IMG/VR virus record: IMGVR_UViG_3300025141_016476
Location: 1 to 30,366 of that record
Length of the DNA stretch: 30,366 bases
Reading direction: 5' to 3' (one strand)
Source: a virus
A program made the translations under genes and the position numbers. Position 1 is the stretch's first letter. Every line of letters starts with the position of its first letter. This document shows, in pieces, positions 18,511-27,491 of the stretch. The notes beneath the pieces are model-generated. The model was not told where the DNA came from, made no database searches, and saw nothing but the letters and a program-made list of their open reading frames with translations.

Positions 18511-20106
18511 ATGTCATTGACAAAAAGAATAATAGTAGATGGTGATGAACTTACTAGTAAGCTTAAGCGCGGCATAGACAAGTTAGCAAACACTGTTAAA
18601 ACTACAATGGGACCAAAAGGAAAACTAGTATTAATTCAAAGACCTGGTAATCATCCAATTGTTACAAAAGATGGAGTTACAGTTGCAAATGCAATTAATC
18701 TTCAAGATGAGGTTGAAAACTTAGCAGCACAAATTATTAAAGAAGCGGCTGCTAGAACAGCAGACGAGGCAGGCGATGGAACAACCACAGCAACAGTTTT
18801 GGCACAATCAATTTATACTGAAGGTCTAAAGATGATTGCTGCTGGATTTGACATTGTAGGCATAAAAAAAGGAATTAATATTGCAGTTTCTACTGTAATT
18901 GATAAAATTAATAATTCAGCTCGCAAAGTTAAAAGTAGTAATGATTTAATGAAAGTTGCATTAATTTCAGCAAATGGCGAAAACGATATTGCAAAACTTA
19001 TTGTTGATGCAATTGATACCGCCGGCGTCGATGGAAATATTATAGTTGAAGAAGCAAAAGGTTTTAAAAGTAGTTTAACTATTGTTGAAGGCTATCAAGT
19101 TGATCGTGGGTTTCTGTCTCCGTATTTTGTAACAGATAAAAATAAAATGACTTGTAATTTTAAAAATCCTTTAATCTTGCTTGCAGATAGAAGTTTTAAT
19201 TCTATTCATGAACTTATGAAACCTTTGGAAATTGCACTCGAGTCTAGTAGGCCTATTTTAGTAGTTGGCAACGATATTGACGGTGATGCTATGCAAGGTT
19301 TAGTTTTAAACAGGGTAAAAGGATCTTTGCAGGTTTGTGCAATAAAGTCACCAGGTTTTGGAGATGCTAGGCATGATTTACTAAACGATTTACAAGCAGT
19401 CGTTGGTGGAAAAGTAATTACAAATTCGTTTGATATGCAGTCATATGACATAGAAATGTTTGGAACTTGTAAAAATGCAATGATTGGTAAGTCATCTACA
19501 CTGTTTATAAATGATTCAAAAATTGATGAAAAGAAAGCGCCTGATGAAAGAATTAATATAATCAAAGAATTCTTAAAAAGTCCAGGATTGTCACCAAATG
19601 AAAAAGAATTATTAACTTATAGAATGAACCAGCTTTCAGGCGGTATTGCAATTCTTAGAGTGGGTGCAGCAACAGAGTCTGAGCTAATAGAACGATACGA
19701 TAGAGTTGATGATGCGCTTAATGCTACAAAAGCTGCAATTCAAGAAGGTATACTACCTGGCGGAGGTGTTGCATTGGCAAAAATTTCCAAGGATTTAGAA
19801 AAACTATTAGAATCATATGACTCTGATGTTTCTGCAGGTATAAGAATTATATCAAAAGCGTGCGTATCACCTTTTAATCAGATAGTTTTAAATGGAGGAA
19901 AAAGCCCAGAGCTTTTACTTGATACTGTATTAAATTCAAAACCAGATACAGGTTATGATTCTAGAGAAAATAAAACAGGTAATATGTTTGAATTGGGCAT
20001 TGTTGATCCTAAAAAAGTTGTTAGATGTGCAATTGAAAATGCAGCATCAGCATCAAGTATGCTTTTGTCAGCAGGTGCTTCAATGATTGAAATAAGTAAA
20101 AATTAA
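18511..20106 (+). CDS. groEL: Phage-encoded chaperonin GroEL
   Basis: 531 aa, AAAGG before ATG. Group I chaperonin: the nucleotide site is intact, with MGPKGKLVLI (33-42), DGVTVANAI, AGDGTTTATVL (D89 equals E. coli D87), the hinge and stem motif RVDDALNATKAAIQEGILPGGG (with the catalytic Asp equivalent to D398) and NAASASSMLLSAGASMIE at the end. The apical domain (GYQVDRGFLSPYFVTD, DRSFNSIHELMKPLEIA) is complete but diverged. The GGM-repeat tail is absent and the protein ends at the equatorial domain. No GroES-like gene is in the window; it may use host GroES, act alone like some jumbo-phage chaperonins, or pair with a co-chaperonin elsewhere. A role in folding virion proteins is inferred. 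Confidence 0.96.
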   Translation: MSLTKRIIVDGDELTSKLKRGIDKLANTVKTTMGPKGKLVLIQRPGNHPIVTKDGVTVANAINLQDEVENLAAQIIKEAAARTADEAGDGTTTATVLAQSIYTEGLKMIAAGFDIVGIKKGINIAVSTVIDKINNSARKVKSSNDLMKVALISANGENDIAKLIVDAIDTAGVDGNIIVEEAKGFKSSLTIVEGYQVDRGFLSPYFVTDKNKMTCNFKNPLILLADRSFNSIHELMKPLEIALESSRPILVVGNDIDGDAMQGLVLNRVKGSLQVCAIKSPGFGDARHDLLNDLQAVVGGKVITNSFDMQSYDIEMFGTCKNAMIGKSSTLFINDSKIDEKKAPDERINIIKEFLKSPGLSPNEKELLTYRMNQLSGGIAILRVGAATESELIERYDRVDDALNATKAAIQEGILPGGGVALAKISKDLEKLLESYDSDVSAGIRIISKACVSPFNQIVLNGGKSPELLLDTVLNSKPDTGYDSRENKTGNMFELGIVDPKKVVRCAIENAASASSMLLSAGASMIEISKN

Positions 20107-20514: not shown

Positions 20515-20544
20515 GGGTGTAAACTTCTGATATCGTGTTTATAA

Positions 20545-20552
20545 TATAAATA
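20545..20552 (+). promoter_or_regulatory. T4-late-like promoter box TATAAATA
   Basis: An exact copy of the T4 late -10 octamer in the 65-bp gap 20515-20579, 28 nt before ATG 20580, inside TTATAATATAAATAACATTAAAG. The same extended string TTATAATATAAATA recurs at 20774-20787 before the sigma gene. No -35-like hexamer is obvious. Assignment is by motif and position only. Confidence 0.45.
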
Positions 20553-20579: not shown

Positions 20580-20762
20580 ATGAAAATTTATAGCTCTGAA
20601 GATTTGACAAAATTAAATGATTCTGAACTTAAGCAAATTTGTATGTCTGTGAGATCAGAAATCAATAAAAACAATAGAATAAAAAAAGATACAAGGGAAT
20701 TGGAAATATACTTTTGTTATATTCTTAGAGAATTAGAAATTAGAGGAAGTCGTGTAACTTAA
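20580..20762 (+). CDS. Hypothetical small helical protein (60 aa)
   Basis: ATG 20580 with GGAAGG 4 nt upstream, in a unit of its own flanked by gaps that both carry TATAAATA boxes. The product is charged and helical (SSEDLTKLNDSELKQICMSV, NRIKKDTRELEIYFCYILRELEIR) with no membrane segment. Small size and its own promoter-like box hint at a regulatory or late accessory protein, but no function can be assigned. Confidence 0.6.
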   Translation: MKIYSSEDLTKLNDSELKQICMSVRSEINKNNRIKKDTRELEIYFCYILRELEIRGSRVT

Positions 20763-20779
20763 TTAAAAACAGATTATAA

Positions 20780-20787
20780 TATAAATA
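20780..20787 (+). promoter_or_regulatory. T4-late-like promoter box TATAAATA upstream of the sigma gene
   Basis: Exact TATAAATA in the 63-bp gap 20763-20825, 38 nt before the sigma-factor ATG. The upstream context TTATAA is shared with the box at 20545. If the sigma recognises this box it would regulate its own gene. Inference from motif, position and shared context. Confidence 0.45.
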
Positions 20788-20825: not shown

Positions 20826-21560
20826 ATGAAATCAAATCTTGAAGTTTACTTTAAAGATGTGGGTGCACATCCTCTTTTAACAAGAGATGAAGAAGTATAT
20901 TTAGCAAAAAGAATCGAACAGGGTGATTCTGAAGCTAGAGAAAAAATGATATCATCTAATCTAAGATTAGCAGTATCAATTGCAAGAAAATATGCACAAT
21001 ATGGATCAAATCTTGAAGACTTAATTCAAGAATCTAATATTGGATTAATTAAGGCTGTTGAAAAGTTTGACTGGCGAAAAGGCTTTAAGTTTTCAACATA
21101 TGCATGTTGGTGGATAAAGCAGTCAGTAATTAGACACTTGACAAATTCAAGTTCAATATTGAAAATACCAGCGCATACATTGTCAAATGCTAGAAAAATA
21201 TACCAGGTTGTAAAAGAATATAATGAAGAATTCCAGCAAGATCCTACAAATGAAGAAGTTGCTGATATTCTTAATATGCCTATTTCAGCAGTTAAACAAG
21301 CAATAGAATCTTTGAAAGCTAAAAACGTAGGAAGAATTGATGAGCCTATTGGCAAGGAAGGCAATAGAACTTACGCAGAGATTATTCCAGATAAAAATGC
21401 AGAAGATATTGATAAGATTATAGACAATAAAGCAATAAGAAAACTAATTGTCAAATCTTTAGGTTCTTTAAGCAAAAGAGAAGAAATGGTGCTTCGATTA
21501 CGATTTGGAATTGATGATATTTCAGAGGACGATACTAACATTTATAACGTACAACAATAA
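20826..21560 (+). CDS. Sigma70-family RNA polymerase sigma factor lacking region 4.2
   Basis: 244 aa, ATG with CGGAGA upstream. Region 1.2 (VYFKDVGAHPLLTRDEEVYLAKRIEQGD, split around residue 20), region 2 (SSNLRLAVSIARKYAQYG, then LIQESNIGLIKAVEKFDWRK and GFKFSTYACWWIKQSVIRHL, the core-binding and -10-reading helices) and region 3 (KIPAHTLSNARKIYQVV) are well conserved with RpoD/RpoS. Region 4.1 begins (SLGSLSKREEMVLRLRFGID), but the protein stops after DISEDDTNIYNVQQ. The region 4.2 helix-turn-helix that reads the -35 box is missing. I saw no frameshifted remnant after the stop; an unrelated-frame HTH gene follows. This architecture predicts -35-independent promoters, like T4 gp55. Confidence 0.92.
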   Translation: MKSNLEVYFKDVGAHPLLTRDEEVYLAKRIEQGDSEAREKMISSNLRLAVSIARKYAQYGSNLEDLIQESNIGLIKAVEKFDWRKGFKFSTYACWWIKQSVIRHLTNSSSILKIPAHTLSNARKIYQVVKEYNEEFQQDPTNEEVADILNMPISAVKQAIESLKAKNVGRIDEPIGKEGNRTYAEIIPDKNAEDIDKIIDNKAIRKLIVKSLGSLSKREEMVLRLRFGIDDISEDDTNIYNVQQ

Positions 21561-21580
21561 TTAAAGGATAGGAATAGATT

Positions 21581-21871
21581 ATGTCAATGCCAAAAGGTTT
21601 TAAGTCTGAAAACGGATATGCAACTTCAAAGTCACTTGGAGGTAAAACATATCATGAGATATCAAGCGTTATGGTCGATAGCGGCTATAAAATGAATCAT
21701 TCAACTGCAAGAAATGTTTTTGTTTCATCATTAATAAAGATTGCACATGAAGTAACAAAACTATATAATTTAAGTCTAAATGAAAAAGAATTAAAAAGAA
21801 TAGCTATTGATCCAAGATTTCAAGAAGCTGTTAGGGAGTACATGAGTGAAAAAAGATATACAGGGATCTGA
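21581..21871 (+). CDS. Small helix-turn-helix protein, possible detached sigma region 4-like partner
   Basis: 96 aa, starting 20 bp after the truncated sigma, with AAAGGATAGGA upstream (distant, so moderate support). Residues 20-60 (GGKTYHEISSVMVDSGYKMN, then HSTARNVFVSSLIKIAHEV) have the order of a sigma-4.2-type HTH: a helix with T-Y-H-E-I, a turn, and a recognition-like helix H-S-T-A-R-N-V, followed by L-x-K-I as in A-L-R-K-L-R. The N-terminus is short and polar, the C-terminus helical and charged. I infer a DNA- or polymerase-binding transcription protein working with the sigma. It may instead be an unrelated repressor. Confidence 0.6.
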   Translation: MSMPKGFKSENGYATSKSLGGKTYHEISSVMVDSGYKMNHSTARNVFVSSLIKIAHEVTKLYNLSLNEKELKRIAIDPRFQEAVREYMSEKRYTGI

Positions 21872-22121
21872 AGAATTTAAAAATTTAATATATCAAACAC
21901 AACTTTTAGAGAGCTTAGGTTGGGATGAAACTCAACTTGAAGCTCTCTATGAGTATGTTGATACAGCATTTAATGCCGATATCATAATTCATCCAAATGA
22001 AATACTTAAGACAATAGAAGAACATTTTGGAGAAAGTACAAAAGAGTGTTTTAAAAATATATTAAATACAGTAATGTTATCATATAATTTACACATGGTG
22101 AATCCAAATAATGAGCATTAA
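21846..22121 (+). CDS. Hypothetical acidic helical protein (91 aa)
   Basis: GTG start overlapping the HTH gene by 26 bp, with TTAGGGAG upstream. The product is acidic and all-helical (SEEFKNLIYQTQLLESLGWDE, TQLEALYEYVDTAF, LKTIEEHFGESTKECFKNIL). It has no known motif. Close coupling to the sigma and HTH genes suggests it belongs to the same regulatory unit, perhaps as a polymerase-binding partner such as a gp33-like coactivator, but no homology supports this. Confidence 0.6.
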   Translation: MKKDIQGSEEFKNLIYQTQLLESLGWDETQLEALYEYVDTAFNADIIIHPNEILKTIEEHFGESTKECFKNILNTVMLSYNLHMVNPNNEH

Positions 22122-22398
22122 TTTAAAATATATTTTAAAAAGAAACAAAATTGATATGGAAGCTTTTTTCTTAAAGAATCAAATAGAAAACTATGAACAA
22201 CTATGCGAGCATTGCAAGAATGTTGACATTATACCGATAACAAAGGTAGAATATGATCTTCTTGTTAAAAAAGAAGAAAAGCCTAAGGAAGTAAAAATTG
22301 AAAAGCCAAAACAGAGAAAAAAATCTACTAGGGCGTCTAGTAAAACACAAACAAGACAAAAGCGTAGGTCTAGTTCTAAAAAAGTCAATAACACATAA
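22111..22398 (+). CDS. Small protein with CxxC and long Lys/Arg-rich tail
   Basis: 95 aa; ATG overlaps the upstream gene by 11 bp. The N-terminal half is an ordinary helical piece containing C32-x-x-C35 (QLCEHCKNVD). From about residue 52 the protein is an H1-like tail (KKEEKPKEVKIEKPKQRKKS, then RASSKTQTRQKRRSSSKKV), very basic and unstructured. Such tails bind nucleic acid non-specifically or mark packaged proteins. Function unknown. Confidence 0.6.
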   Translation: MSINLKYILKRNKIDMEAFFLKNQIENYEQLCEHCKNVDIIPITKVEYDLLVKKEEKPKEVKIEKPKQRKKSTRASSKTQTRQKRRSSSKKVNNT

Positions 22399-24836: not shown

Positions 24837-26414
24837 ATGCAATATTGTTTTTTGTTCTTTTTATGTTTAGTTTTTGGATGTTCAGATAACACACTAGTTA
24901 AGATGCAAAACAGAGAACCTGACATCTTAGTTCATCCTGAAATTATTAATTTTGGAAACTTAGAATCAGGATTTGAATCAGGACATAAGACATTTGCAAT
25001 AATTAATGTGGGGGATGAGGATTTATATGTCTCACCCCCAGTTTTGTATGATGGTTCTAGCAGGTTTGCAATAAGCGAAATCAATGAGGATATCCTCATT
25101 CCCGCGGGCGAGCTTGTTGACATTGATGTACGATATATTCCCGAAACATATGAGCATAACGGTGCATATGTTGAAGTTAGATCTAACGATGAAGATCAAC
25201 CGGTCATTAAAGTTCTACTTGAAGGCTTAGGCGATGCCCCAGTCTTATCTTTGAATCCTGAGGGTCATGACTTTGGTACAATATCTATTGGATGTGATAA
25301 TGAACTTAGGCTTACAATCGGAAATATTGGTAATTTACCACTAACCATAGATAGCGTTCAACAAATGGTAACACAGCCGATAGACATTAATATGTTTTTT
25401 GGAACTTTACCAGACCTTCCATGGATTATCGATCCAGGTTTTGAGCTTGATATTATTACTTCATACACGCCCAGTGATGTAGGTAGTGATTCTAGCTTAA
25501 TAACAATAACAAGTAATGACCCGCTTAATCCAATTGTAGATTTTGAAGAAGAGGGTGATGGTCAAGTTGAACAGTGGATAGTAGATCAACATGAACAAGA
25601 AGAAATACCTCTGCTTGATGTTCTTTGGGTAATAGATAATAGCGGATCAATGAACCCATTTCAACAGGCATTAGCTGATAATATGGTTGATTTTATGAAT
25701 ATATTTTTAGCTGCTAGTCCTGATTTTCATATGGCTTTTATAACAACAGACTCATATGGTTTCCAAGGTGGTGGCTATATAAATAATAACACTAGTCAAC
25801 CTGCATCATCAGCATCATCAATACTTGCATCTATTGGAATTCATGGCTCTGGACATGAAAAAGGAATTCAGTATTCGAAACAATCAACGGATATTGGTCC
25901 TGCTGCTCCTGGCTCTATGTTTTTTAGAGAGGATGCAACATTAGTTATAATATACGTTAGCGATGAACCCGATTTCAGTACGGGTGGATGGAGTAATTAT
26001 GTGAATCACTTTACTAACTTAAAAGATTCAGACAAACTCCACATGGTATCAATTGTAGGTGATGATCCTTCCGGATGCACATTTGCATATGGGAACGTTA
26101 CAAGAACAATAGGGTATGGCTCAGGCTATATTGATATTACAAATTATTTTAATGGCTCTATATACTCTATTTGTTCAACAGACTGGGGATTGCAAATGGA
26201 AGATTTAGCAAATACAGTTTCAAAGAGGCGAAGATTTGAATTAACAGAACCAGATCCCATGGAAAATACAATAGAAGTTTATGTTAATGGGCAACAAGCA
26301 ATAGCTGGCTGGACATACGATCCTATTGAAAATTGGGTTGAATTCGACTCTGGCGCCGAACCTTCTCCGGGCGATACAATCGAAATTAAGTATGCAACTT
26401 GGGGATGTGAGTGA
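24837..26414 (+). CDS. Secreted lipoprotein with Ig-like repeats and von Willebrand A domain
   Basis: 525 aa, GAGGT before ATG. The N-terminus is a lipoprotein signal with lipobox LVFGC (Cys15). Residues 28-130 and 135-240 are two ASPM/SPD-2/Hydin-type (choice-of-anchor D) beta domains, each with the I-N-F-G-N-L or H-D-F-G-T-I start and a Y-x-P end. The VWA domain begins about 258: VLWVIDNSGSMN gives the MIDAS D267-x-S269-x-S271. VIIYVSDEPDFSTGG supplies a later metal loop, and many short Gly/Ser/Asn loops follow to about 460. A final small beta domain ends in Cys524. Such proteins bind surfaces or partners extracellularly in bacteria. It overlaps the metzincin gene (GTGA). Carriage by a phage suggests a surface-exposed infection function, unproven. 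Confidence 0.85.
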   Translation: MQYCFLFFLCLVFGCSDNTLVKMQNREPDILVHPEIINFGNLESGFESGHKTFAIINVGDEDLYVSPPVLYDGSSRFAISEINEDILIPAGELVDIDVRYIPETYEHNGAYVEVRSNDEDQPVIKVLLEGLGDAPVLSLNPEGHDFGTISIGCDNELRLTIGNIGNLPLTIDSVQQMVTQPIDINMFFGTLPDLPWIIDPGFELDIITSYTPSDVGSDSSLITITSNDPLNPIVDFEEEGDGQVEQWIVDQHEQEEIPLLDVLWVIDNSGSMNPFQQALADNMVDFMNIFLAASPDFHMAFITTDSYGFQGGGYINNNTSQPASSASSILASIGIHGSGHEKGIQYSKQSTDIGPAAPGSMFFREDATLVIIYVSDEPDFSTGGWSNYVNHFTNLKDSDKLHMVSIVGDDPSGCTFAYGNVTRTIGYGSGYIDITNYFNGSIYSICSTDWGLQMEDLANTVSKRRRFELTEPDPMENTIEVYVNGQQAIAGWTYDPIENWVEFDSGAEPSPGDTIEIKYATWGCE

Positions 26415-26926
26415 AGCTATTTAAAAAAATAGCTAGATTGCTCTTTGGTATTTCGCTAGGATTAGCAATTGGAACTTCCATAACAATTATTTTTTATGTT
26501 AAAAGTTATCAACCATATAAATGGAAATCACCCCCAATAGTTGCAAATTGTTATGGTGAAGATTTTTATGAAATGAGACTTCAAACTGCAACAAAATACT
26601 GGCGTGACAAAGATGAACATATATCATTCATTATAATCGATCCGCCTAAGTCTGTTTGCGATAAAGAATTTTTAGATGGTTTTATTATTATAAAAAAGGC
26701 ACCACCTGGTTCTTTGGGTGATGGAACTCTTGCAAGAACAAATACAAAAATTAAATATTTGGAATTGCGTGCTGCTGTTATATACTTTGAGCCAGGCACA
26801 CAAAACTTAACATTTATAGTTGAGCATGAAATTGGTCACGCACTTGGATGGAAGCATATTAATGCAATTGGCCATATAATGAATCCAACATATGAGTATA
26901 TGGGTGAAAAATTTTGGATACCGTAG
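26411..26926 (+). CDS. Membrane-anchored metzincin-type zinc metalloprotease
   Basis: 171 aa, GTG start overlapping the VWA lipoprotein stop by 4 bp. A single N-terminal hydrophobic anchor (LLFGISLGLAIGTSITIIFY, about 10-29) puts the rest outside the cytoplasm. The zinc motif is complete: H139-E140-x-x-H143-x-x-G-x-x-H149 (EHEIGHALGWKHI), followed after eight residues by the Met-turn IMNP (M157). Both are diagnostic of metzincins (matrixin-like). The catalytic domain is small, about 125 residues, below the size of most matrixins. A Cys pair (C47, C83) might form a disulfide. Tight coupling with two other exported genes suggests one envelope-directed function. Confidence 0.82.
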   Translation: MKLFKKIARLLFGISLGLAIGTSITIIFYVKSYQPYKWKSPPIVANCYGEDFYEMRLQTATKYWRDKDEHISFIIIDPPKSVCDKEFLDGFIIIKKAPPGSLGDGTLARTNTKIKYLELRAAVIYFEPGTQNLTFIVEHEIGHALGWKHINAIGHIMNPTYEYMGEKFWIP

Positions 26927-26939
26927 GAGGGTAGTTATT

Positions 26940-27491
26940 ATGTTTATATTATTATTTTTATTTACTGCATGTTTATTTAGTGCAAATGTTGTTGATCAAA
27001 CAGAACAATCAAATATAGTTTGCGCATCAATTATTGATCAGACACCGTGTAATTTTTCTGCAACTAACGGAGCAGGAGAAGAGGTCCAACTACATGACTT
27101 AGTAGGTCAACCTATTGTCCTAGATATAAGTGCAATGTGGTGTGGCCCATGTCAATTAGCAGCATCTGACGTACAAAAAGTACAAGATAGATATCTAGAA
27201 GATGAATTAATTTATTTGACACTGCTTGTTGACAATTTAGCAGGTGAAGAACCTACAGTCGAAGATATTATTAGATGGGAAGAACAATTTGGAATTGAAA
27301 GTGCGCCAGTATGGTCAATAAGTAGGGATGTGATTACTAGTGATCCGACAAAAACAGGTGAGTTTCTTTACATGGATAGCTTACCAACTTTTTACTTTAT
27401 TGATTCTGACATGAAAATTAAAAGTTTTCAGCGTGGATACTCTGAAGAATCAATTGAGTCTAAAATTATTGATCTATTGATGAAAGATTAG
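26940..27491 (+). CDS. Exported thioredoxin-fold (TlpA-like) protein, probable lipoprotein
   Basis: 183 aa from ATG 26940, with AGGAGG 9 nt upstream; an ATG at 26892 would overlap the metzincin gene and place the signal internally. The signal MFILLFLFTAC has an acceptable lipobox (F-T-A-C, Cys11). The mature part is TlpA/ResA-like: LVGQPIVLDISAMWCGPCQLA with the active W-C68-G-P-C71, then LLVDNLAGEEPTVEDIIRWEEQFG, and the cis-Pro segment SLPTFYFID. WCGPC is the reducing-type thioredoxin active site. It may keep the cysteines of the neighbouring exported proteins reduced or help fold them. Its stop lies 2 bp from the convergent - strand module. Confidence 0.85.
   Translation: MFILLFLFTACLFSANVVDQTEQSNIVCASIIDQTPCNFSATNGAGEEVQLHDLVGQPIVLDISAMWCGPCQLAASDVQKVQDRYLEDELIYLTLLVDNLAGEEPTVEDIIRWEEQFGIESAPVWSISRDVITSDPTKTGEFLYMDSLPTFYFIDSDMKIKSFQRGYSEESIESKIIDLLMKD

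Follow-up and report, generated by a model that had tools for sequence, protein, structure and literature searches.

A truncated phage sigma factor and an adjacent helix-turn-helix protein as a candidate two-subunit sigma of large marine phages

The sigma-70-type factor encoded in a 30.4-kb virus record (the window, by which we mean the whole of this stretch of DNA) ends just after region 4.1 and is followed by the gene of a small helix-turn-helix (HTH) protein. Based on comparison of sequences, we propose with a probability of roughly 0.6 that the pair is one two-subunit sigma factor that is cut inside domain 4 and in which the small protein would complete region 4 in trans. In a large family of marine giant phages, two proteins seem to divide promoter recognition between them. 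We infer a physical assembly in which the large subunit, comprising regions 1.2, 2, 3 and 4.1, would bind the core RNA polymerase of the host, recognise the -10 element and bring its region 4.1 close to the beta flap, while the two HTH helices of the small subunit, plus a C-terminal helix pair of its own, would take the place of region 4.2. The small subunit and region 4.1 would then make up domain 4 in trans and read or hold the DNA near -35 of the promoters that such a pair might serve.

The gene content of the window is of the large-phage type and includes genes for GroEL, a DNA polymerase III-like protein, thymidine kinase, IMPDH and a 5'-3' exonuclease; the coordinates of the relevant features are given in Table 1. 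A GroEL gene is also found near the sigma gene of Vibrio phage VAP7, where it stands beside a full-length sigma. VAP7, in which GroEL, the sigma and an annotated XRE regulator occur in the same order, was rejected as an equivalent of the window, as its sigma has region 4.2 in cis and its XRE product is by eye unlike the small protein. The third conserved gene of the window and its relatives have no significant family match; when aligned with gp33 of T4 at the place of a noted resemblance, the probability is only 0.30%, and we do not claim it as a gp33 homologue.

Table 1. Features of the window and of related contigs (positions are those of the window unless another locus is named).
Feature	Position	Strand	Basis or remark
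Phage GroEL	18511-20106		PHROG 5725, E 2.7e-138; near the sigma region, on its upstream side
Second promoter-like site, TGTAA-N17-TATAAT, upstream of the 60-aa ORF	20518-20545	+	Motif
60-aa ORF	20580-20762		Promoter-like site upstream
Promoter-like site, TGTAA-N17-TATAAT, upstream of the sigma gene	20753-20780	+	Same kind in eight split-sigma genomes
Truncated sigma-70-type factor, regions 1.2-2-3-4.1, 244 aa	20826-21560	+	ORF, Pfam, PHROG 351 (E 2.2e-60)
Region 4.1, about residues 205-230, LxxREExxLRLRFG	21438-21515	+	Most 3' conserved part of the sigma
Small HTH protein, 96 aa, candidate second half of sigma domain 4 in trans	21581-21871	+	IMG/VR relatives, invariant residues
Predicted HTH helices 24-33 and 40-61 of the small protein	21650-21763	+	AlphaFold2, block mean pLDDT 91-96
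Conserved C-terminal helix pair of the small protein, residues 68-91, motif DPRFQ	21782-21853	+	Alignment and AlphaFold2
Third conserved gene, 95 aa, Lys/Arg-rich tail	22111-22398	+	Family follows the small gene at 184 of the 202 loci searched
ASH/HYDIN-type Ig-like protein gene	24837-26414
Matrixin-type metallopeptidase gene	26411-26926
Thioredoxin-like protein gene	26892-27491
Cys-rich region 4.2 proteins	L244-L255 (12 contigs)		Pfam and profile
Cys-rich region 4.2 protein	L415, 7190-7498		Pfam and profile

In the window sigma, Pfam recovers region 1.2 (E 3.5e-13), region 2 (E 7.8e-22) and region 3 (E 8.9e-11), but only fragmentary matches to region 4. Regions 2 and 3, with their core- and -10-binding motifs, are those of the sigma-70 family, whereas a complete region 4 in one chain is found neither in the window sigma nor in any of 47 aligned relatives, all of which end after region 4.1. 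The profile of the 47 relatives aligns with the cellular sigmas SigA, RpoD and RpoS up to the end of region 4.1 and then stops, and the window sigma has its C-terminus 16 residues past the LRLRFG of that region. Within region 4.1, residues L215, E219, R224, R226, F227 and G228 are invariant across the 47 relatives, and this invariance of a region whose cis partner is gone favours a split sigma. No fewer than 107 distinct sigmas, including a fusion described below, share this break, which rules out a sequencing error or a pseudogene as its cause. Programmed frameshifting or read-through as the normal route to a full sigma is ruled out for the window, since the small ORF opens only after the sigma stop; at other loci the gaps and overlaps between the two genes are of many sizes.

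The small gene starts 20 bp after the sigma gene (gap 21561-21580). The first-pass annotation of this DNA had given exactly these coordinates, and its reading of the sigma as retaining regions 1.2 to 4.1 and stopping before the HTH of region 4.2 is borne out by Pfam and by the profile of 47 relatives. It had also read residues 20-60 of the small protein as a sigma-4.2-type HTH. AlphaFold2 does predict two HTH helices there, but homology to region 4.2 is not recovered: the hhalign probability against the region 4.2 profile is 0.3%, and Pfam Sigma70_r4_2 matches 4 of 47 members with a best E of 0.02, neither of which is significant. Seven residues, M31, G35, H40, R44, K53, F80 and Q81, are invariant in the 47 rows, and three of them in the HTH (H40, R44 and K53) suggest contact with DNA. 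The C-terminal helices, predicted with high confidence at residues 68-75 and 78-91, have no counterpart known to us in an ordinary region 4.2. No significant match to any Pfam family or to a sensible solved chain was found for the small protein, nor any match by tblastn in the annotated phage collection at E up to 10. Its model alone has no convincing match in the PDB (best Z 3.8), which together with the lack of significant 4.2 similarity counts against a split sigma. Searches of the PDB and of viral folds with this model returned nothing at E <=0.001, a result still compatible with a relation, and the best viral match was A0A6J7X3V2 (72 aa, E 0.053, TM 0.80 by its length). The lack of a match for the model suits half a domain and equally a new fold. 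The gene order dsbA-33 of T4 gave the idea that the small protein might be DsbA, which was rejected at an hhalign probability of 0.25% against nine DsbA sequences.

First scans of IMG/VR yielded 27 loci through the small protein as a single sequence and 41 through the sigma, while alignment-based scans yielded 271 relatives of the small protein, overlapping with the 27, and at least 575 of the sigma, 80 of each being kept. With few exceptions in both first lists, the sigma gene is followed by the small gene on the same strand. The gap in 52 unique pairs ranges from -23 to +44 nt, and overlapping reading frames in 28 of them, with starts as picked, point to coupled translation. Profiles were used to classify 286 loci, leaving out the window itself (L001), L342 and L343. 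The small frame opens less than 60 nt from the sigma stop in 192 of these, at 60-600 nt in 11 and farther away in one; the rest comprise one fusion, 74 loci at which the sigma is full-length and the small gene missing, and seven others. At several at least of the 11 loci, another gene lies in between. A short protein with a hydrophobic N-terminus is interposed between sigma and small protein in L147 (3290-3517), L214, L215 and L225, and a protein of about 155 aa, phosphatase-like by eye, in L144 (3515-3979) and L186 (4774-5244).

A truncated sigma is present at every one of the 110 loci reached through the small protein, upstream of the small gene in 109 and fused to it in one, and none of the 74 full-length loci has the small gene, a mutual exclusion that favours a split sigma. 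Among 119 loci found through the sigma, 91 have a truncated sigma with the small gene, 23 a full-length sigma without it and five neither; among 53 found through the fused protein, 51 have a full-length sigma and no small gene and two are other; the remaining four (L338-L341) were found through a Cys-rich protein considered below. The small gene thus accompanies 91 of the 95 truncated sigmas found through the sigma (a denominator that excludes L069, a fragment, from the five other loci) and 0 of the 23 full-length ones. As many loci are the same contigs reached by different scans, distinct sigma sequences were also counted, and there are 107 split or fused and 60 full-length. The small gene is therefore tied to the loss of region 4.2. 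The seven loci with neither region 4.2 in cis by HMM nor a small gene comprise L069 and L366, which are cut by the locus end, L344, which by eye has a variant region 4.2 in cis, and L193, L195, L196 and L197, which are truly truncated. The sigma of these last four ends exactly after region 4.1. Homologous sigmas without the small protein, named by the first-pass annotation as grounds for refusing a split, do therefore occur and count against it, yet they are weak evidence because the four contigs in which no small gene was seen are only 12-37 kb long. In L193 and L196 the truncated sigma is preceded by an ORF of TLHxL-type repeats.

Each of 22 large split-sigma contigs has one sigma and one small protein, and none has a match to the RNA polymerase beta subunit (PF00562), which again favours a split sigma; a gp23-type capsid is found in 20 of the 22. 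The sigma and the small gene are an old, conserved two-gene module that is widespread in large marine phages. Among open-licence PMC papers, we found none that reports an HTH partner next to a sigma ending before region 4.2.

A natural fusion is found in contig VFKM01000012.1 from a Flavobacteriales MAG, where a 357-aa ORF (L230) has the order sigma to region 4.1, short linker, small HTH; it scores 111.7 bits with the sigma profile at residues 46-267 and 49.9 bits with the small-protein profile at residues 261-329. This joining of both proteins in one chain, seen once only and on a contig that may be phage or chromosomal, favours a split sigma. Three further observations point the same way. 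In the hhalign register, which is itself not significant, the invariant R44 and K53 of the small protein fall on the conserved R and K of the region 4.2 recognition helix. In L344, the variant region 4.2 of a full-length sigma matches the small-protein profile at that place, weakly, with 5.1 bits. The sigma and the small protein of L029 were joined by reading the stop as Q, and the model of this read-through chain, built with 79 rows (pLDDT 86.3, pTM 0.54), can be aligned with solved sigmas from its first residue to 312-316, across the linker and the small HTH up to the end of sigma 4.2 (against 5ipl_F, Z 18.9 with 262 aligned residues and a whole-chain rmsd of 17.1). Because the rmsd is about 17 A, the alignment is a match of order and helices and not of the packing of the HTH on region 4.1, and this together with the pTM counts against a split sigma. 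A physically split sigma, as suggested by the first-pass annotation, is well supported by genetics: the two genes are strictly linked, full-length sigmas and the small gene exclude each other, the one natural fusion has the order expected, and region 4.1 on the large piece is strongly conserved.

Promoter-like sites of one kind precede both the sigma gene and the 60-aa ORF of the window. Such a site lies upstream of the sigma at N17 or N18 in 29 of 103 distinct split loci, and eight split-sigma genomes have the motif TGYAA-N17-19-TATAAT with few TTGAC-type sites. In the upstream regions of G008, whose sigma (L030) is 61% identical to that of the window, GTGYAA and TATAMT stand 23 nt apart in 15 of 17 pairs, and 200 kb of this genome contain TG[TC]AA-N17-TATA[AC]T 28 times, against 0-4 times at any of 14 other spacings. 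Parts of the remaining seven genomes (160-200 kb each) were searched, and TG[TC]AA sites were found at N17 in G016 (15), G022 (16), G006 (13) and G012 (10), at N17 and N18 in G014 (11 and 9) and G004 (9 and 9) and at N19 in G011 (12); the window has four at N17. TTGAC at N17-19 from TATA[AC]T is rare in these genomes (G008 4, G016 1, G022 1, G014 6, G011 0, G004 1, G006 2, G012 2). Two phages with full-length sigmas have TTGAC-N17-19-TATAAT commonly (57 in G052, 38 in G053) and TGYAA at N17 four and zero times, respectively, in a comparison of two genomes that does not separate sigma type from lineage and host. T4 has GTTTAC-N18 eight times in 120 kb, and 60 kb of G051, the genome of L344, have neither the TGYAA nor the TTGAC motif. 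A second enriched dyad, TTGATTT about 23 nt upstream of TATAATA, is found in G052 (L497-L505) beside TTGAC-N18-TATAAT. The sequence TATAAATA occurs 10 times in the window against 5.7 expected, a weak excess in that 4 of 100 shuffles reach 10.

The sites of G008 are unevenly placed: 19 of the 28 lie within 175-200 kb among short, early-looking genes and others at replication-type genes, while none is at the capsid gene. No TGYAA-type site stands before the capsid gene in any of the 20 places where its upstream region was searched. A de novo motif search of non-early upstream regions for a late promoter gave a score of 57.7 in G008, not clearly above shuffles (40.6-54.9), and no motif common to the eight genomes. 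Phage early genes are normally read by the host polymerase. Since the TGYAA sites are mostly at early-looking genes, the motif may be read by a host sigma, which counts against a split sigma. Early promoters of T4 are host-read (PMC2988021).

The small protein could instead be a gp33-like coactivator that binds the beta flap at the sigma 4 site and reads no sequence, with the sigma serving -10-only late promoters, perhaps coupled to replication. We consider this rather unlikely. T4 gp55 is without regions 1.2, 3 and 4.1, all of which are kept by the large piece here, and hhalign detects no similarity between gp33 and the small protein (probability 0.27% against nine gp33 sequences), so the T4 parallel drawn by the first-pass annotation is no more than an analogy. 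In the 22 large contigs the gp33 family gives nothing but one 27-position, stop-containing match (E 0.006), and the gp45-type clamp family (PF02916), detected in the T4 control, is in none of these contigs, which are possibly incomplete. DNA contact, as suggested by the invariant H40, R44 and K53 of the HTH, would not fit a protein that reads no sequence. The T4-type gp23 capsid genes of 20 of the 22 contigs and the conserved C-terminal helix pair outside the normal region 4.2 are, on the other hand, what a coactivator would suit, and in T4 itself gp33 binds the flap without reading sequence and is, with gp55, called a split sigma (PMC2988020).

A second candidate for region 4.2, unlinked to the sigma gene, was not foreseen in the first-pass scheme. 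A search of the 22 large contigs and T4 with Pfam Sigma70_r4 gave weak matches at the truncated sigma in part of them, mostly to profile positions 1-18. Twelve of the 22 have an ORF away from the sigma gene that matches positions of about 18-50, one from position 6; these ORFs are 65-131 aa long by the starts called, which are uncertain. Eleven of the 12 proteins have an N-terminal Cys-rich segment that is probably zinc-binding, and their consensus, TLQEIGDxFGVTRMRICQIEK, is that of a canonical region 4.2. A profile confirms the protein in 12 of the 22 contigs, namely 12 of the 15 of >=200 kb and none of the seven shorter ones; the three longer contigs in which it does not turn up are G017 (236 kb), G008 and G009 (about 202 kb). 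The protein is also found in the MAG contig of L228 and in G038, which was picked through it, and has 254 relatives in IMG/VR, but no match by tblastn in the annotated phage collection. The Cys-rich protein might be the true region 4.2 in trans, with the adjacent small protein regulating the sigma. Its occurrence in most of the longer contigs, its profile positions, which take over where those of the truncated sigma end, and its canonical consensus argue for that, and this far better region 4.2 in many of these genomes counts against a split sigma made of the adjacent pair. The Cys-rich gene is, however, unlinked and not seen in three of the longer contigs, the 21 records found through it have a split sigma in only four cases (one has a different sigma and 16 have none, though most are fragments), and in the natural fusion it is the small HTH that is joined to the sigma; we regard this explanation as improbable. 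It is very improbable that the small gene encodes an ordinary regulator, DNA-binding or anti-sigma-like, that just travels with the sigma gene. Small regulators are common beside sigma genes, and in some relatives one or two other genes lie in between, but restriction to truncated sigmas, absence from all 74 full-length loci and a fusion at precisely the place of the missing part are not what one would expect of such a protein.

The two-subunit sigma could tentatively be extended to a modular one, in which a single large subunit would take exchangeable -35 modules in trans, the small HTH protein or the Cys-rich 4.2 protein, and so serve different promoter classes during infection; the break in domain 4 and the lineage-specific TGYAA would be parts of such a scheme. 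We hold the extension to be possible rather than probable.

Two forms of split sigma are known to us, T4 gp55/gp33 and SigO-RsoA, and in both the cut falls between domains. The pair described here offers a near-cellular sigma cut inside domain 4 with its partner adjacent, together with a fused form and full-length relatives for comparison, and the small protein may provide a separable -35 reader for synthetic use. Geiduschek and Kassavetis (2010) asked why no fused late sigma had been found (PMC2988020). L230 is a natural fusion of a related kind, and what splitting buys therefore becomes testable.

Compared with the group 1 and 2 sigma-70 factors (SigA, RpoD and RpoS), the phage chain aligns along regions 1.2, 2, 3 and 4.1 and lacks region 4.2. 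The phages resemble the group 2 jumbo phages of Iyer et al. (2021), which are also of the gp23 type and without an RNA polymerase of their own, and for which a 'minimal sigma with a single HTH' is mentioned (PMC7824862); the Cys-rich 4.2 protein could be that minimal sigma. The passages of that account considered here describe no sigma truncated before region 4.2 with an adjacent HTH gene. As in T4, where the arrangement is called a split sigma, the work of a sigma would be divided between two small phage proteins on the host polymerase (PMC2988020). The gp55 and gp33 genes are, however, far apart, whereas those of the window are adjacent; gp55 is without region 4, and gp33 has no structural relationship to region 4 of sigma and does not recognise a DNA sequence (PMC7892883, PMC2988020). 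In SigO-RsoA of Bacillus subtilis, one sigma function is likewise split over two cooperating proteins (PMC8103513). By description rather than by sequence, the break there lies between whole domains, with sigma 2 in RsoA and sigma 4 in SigO, whereas here it lies inside domain 4 and leaves regions 1.2 to 4.1 together.
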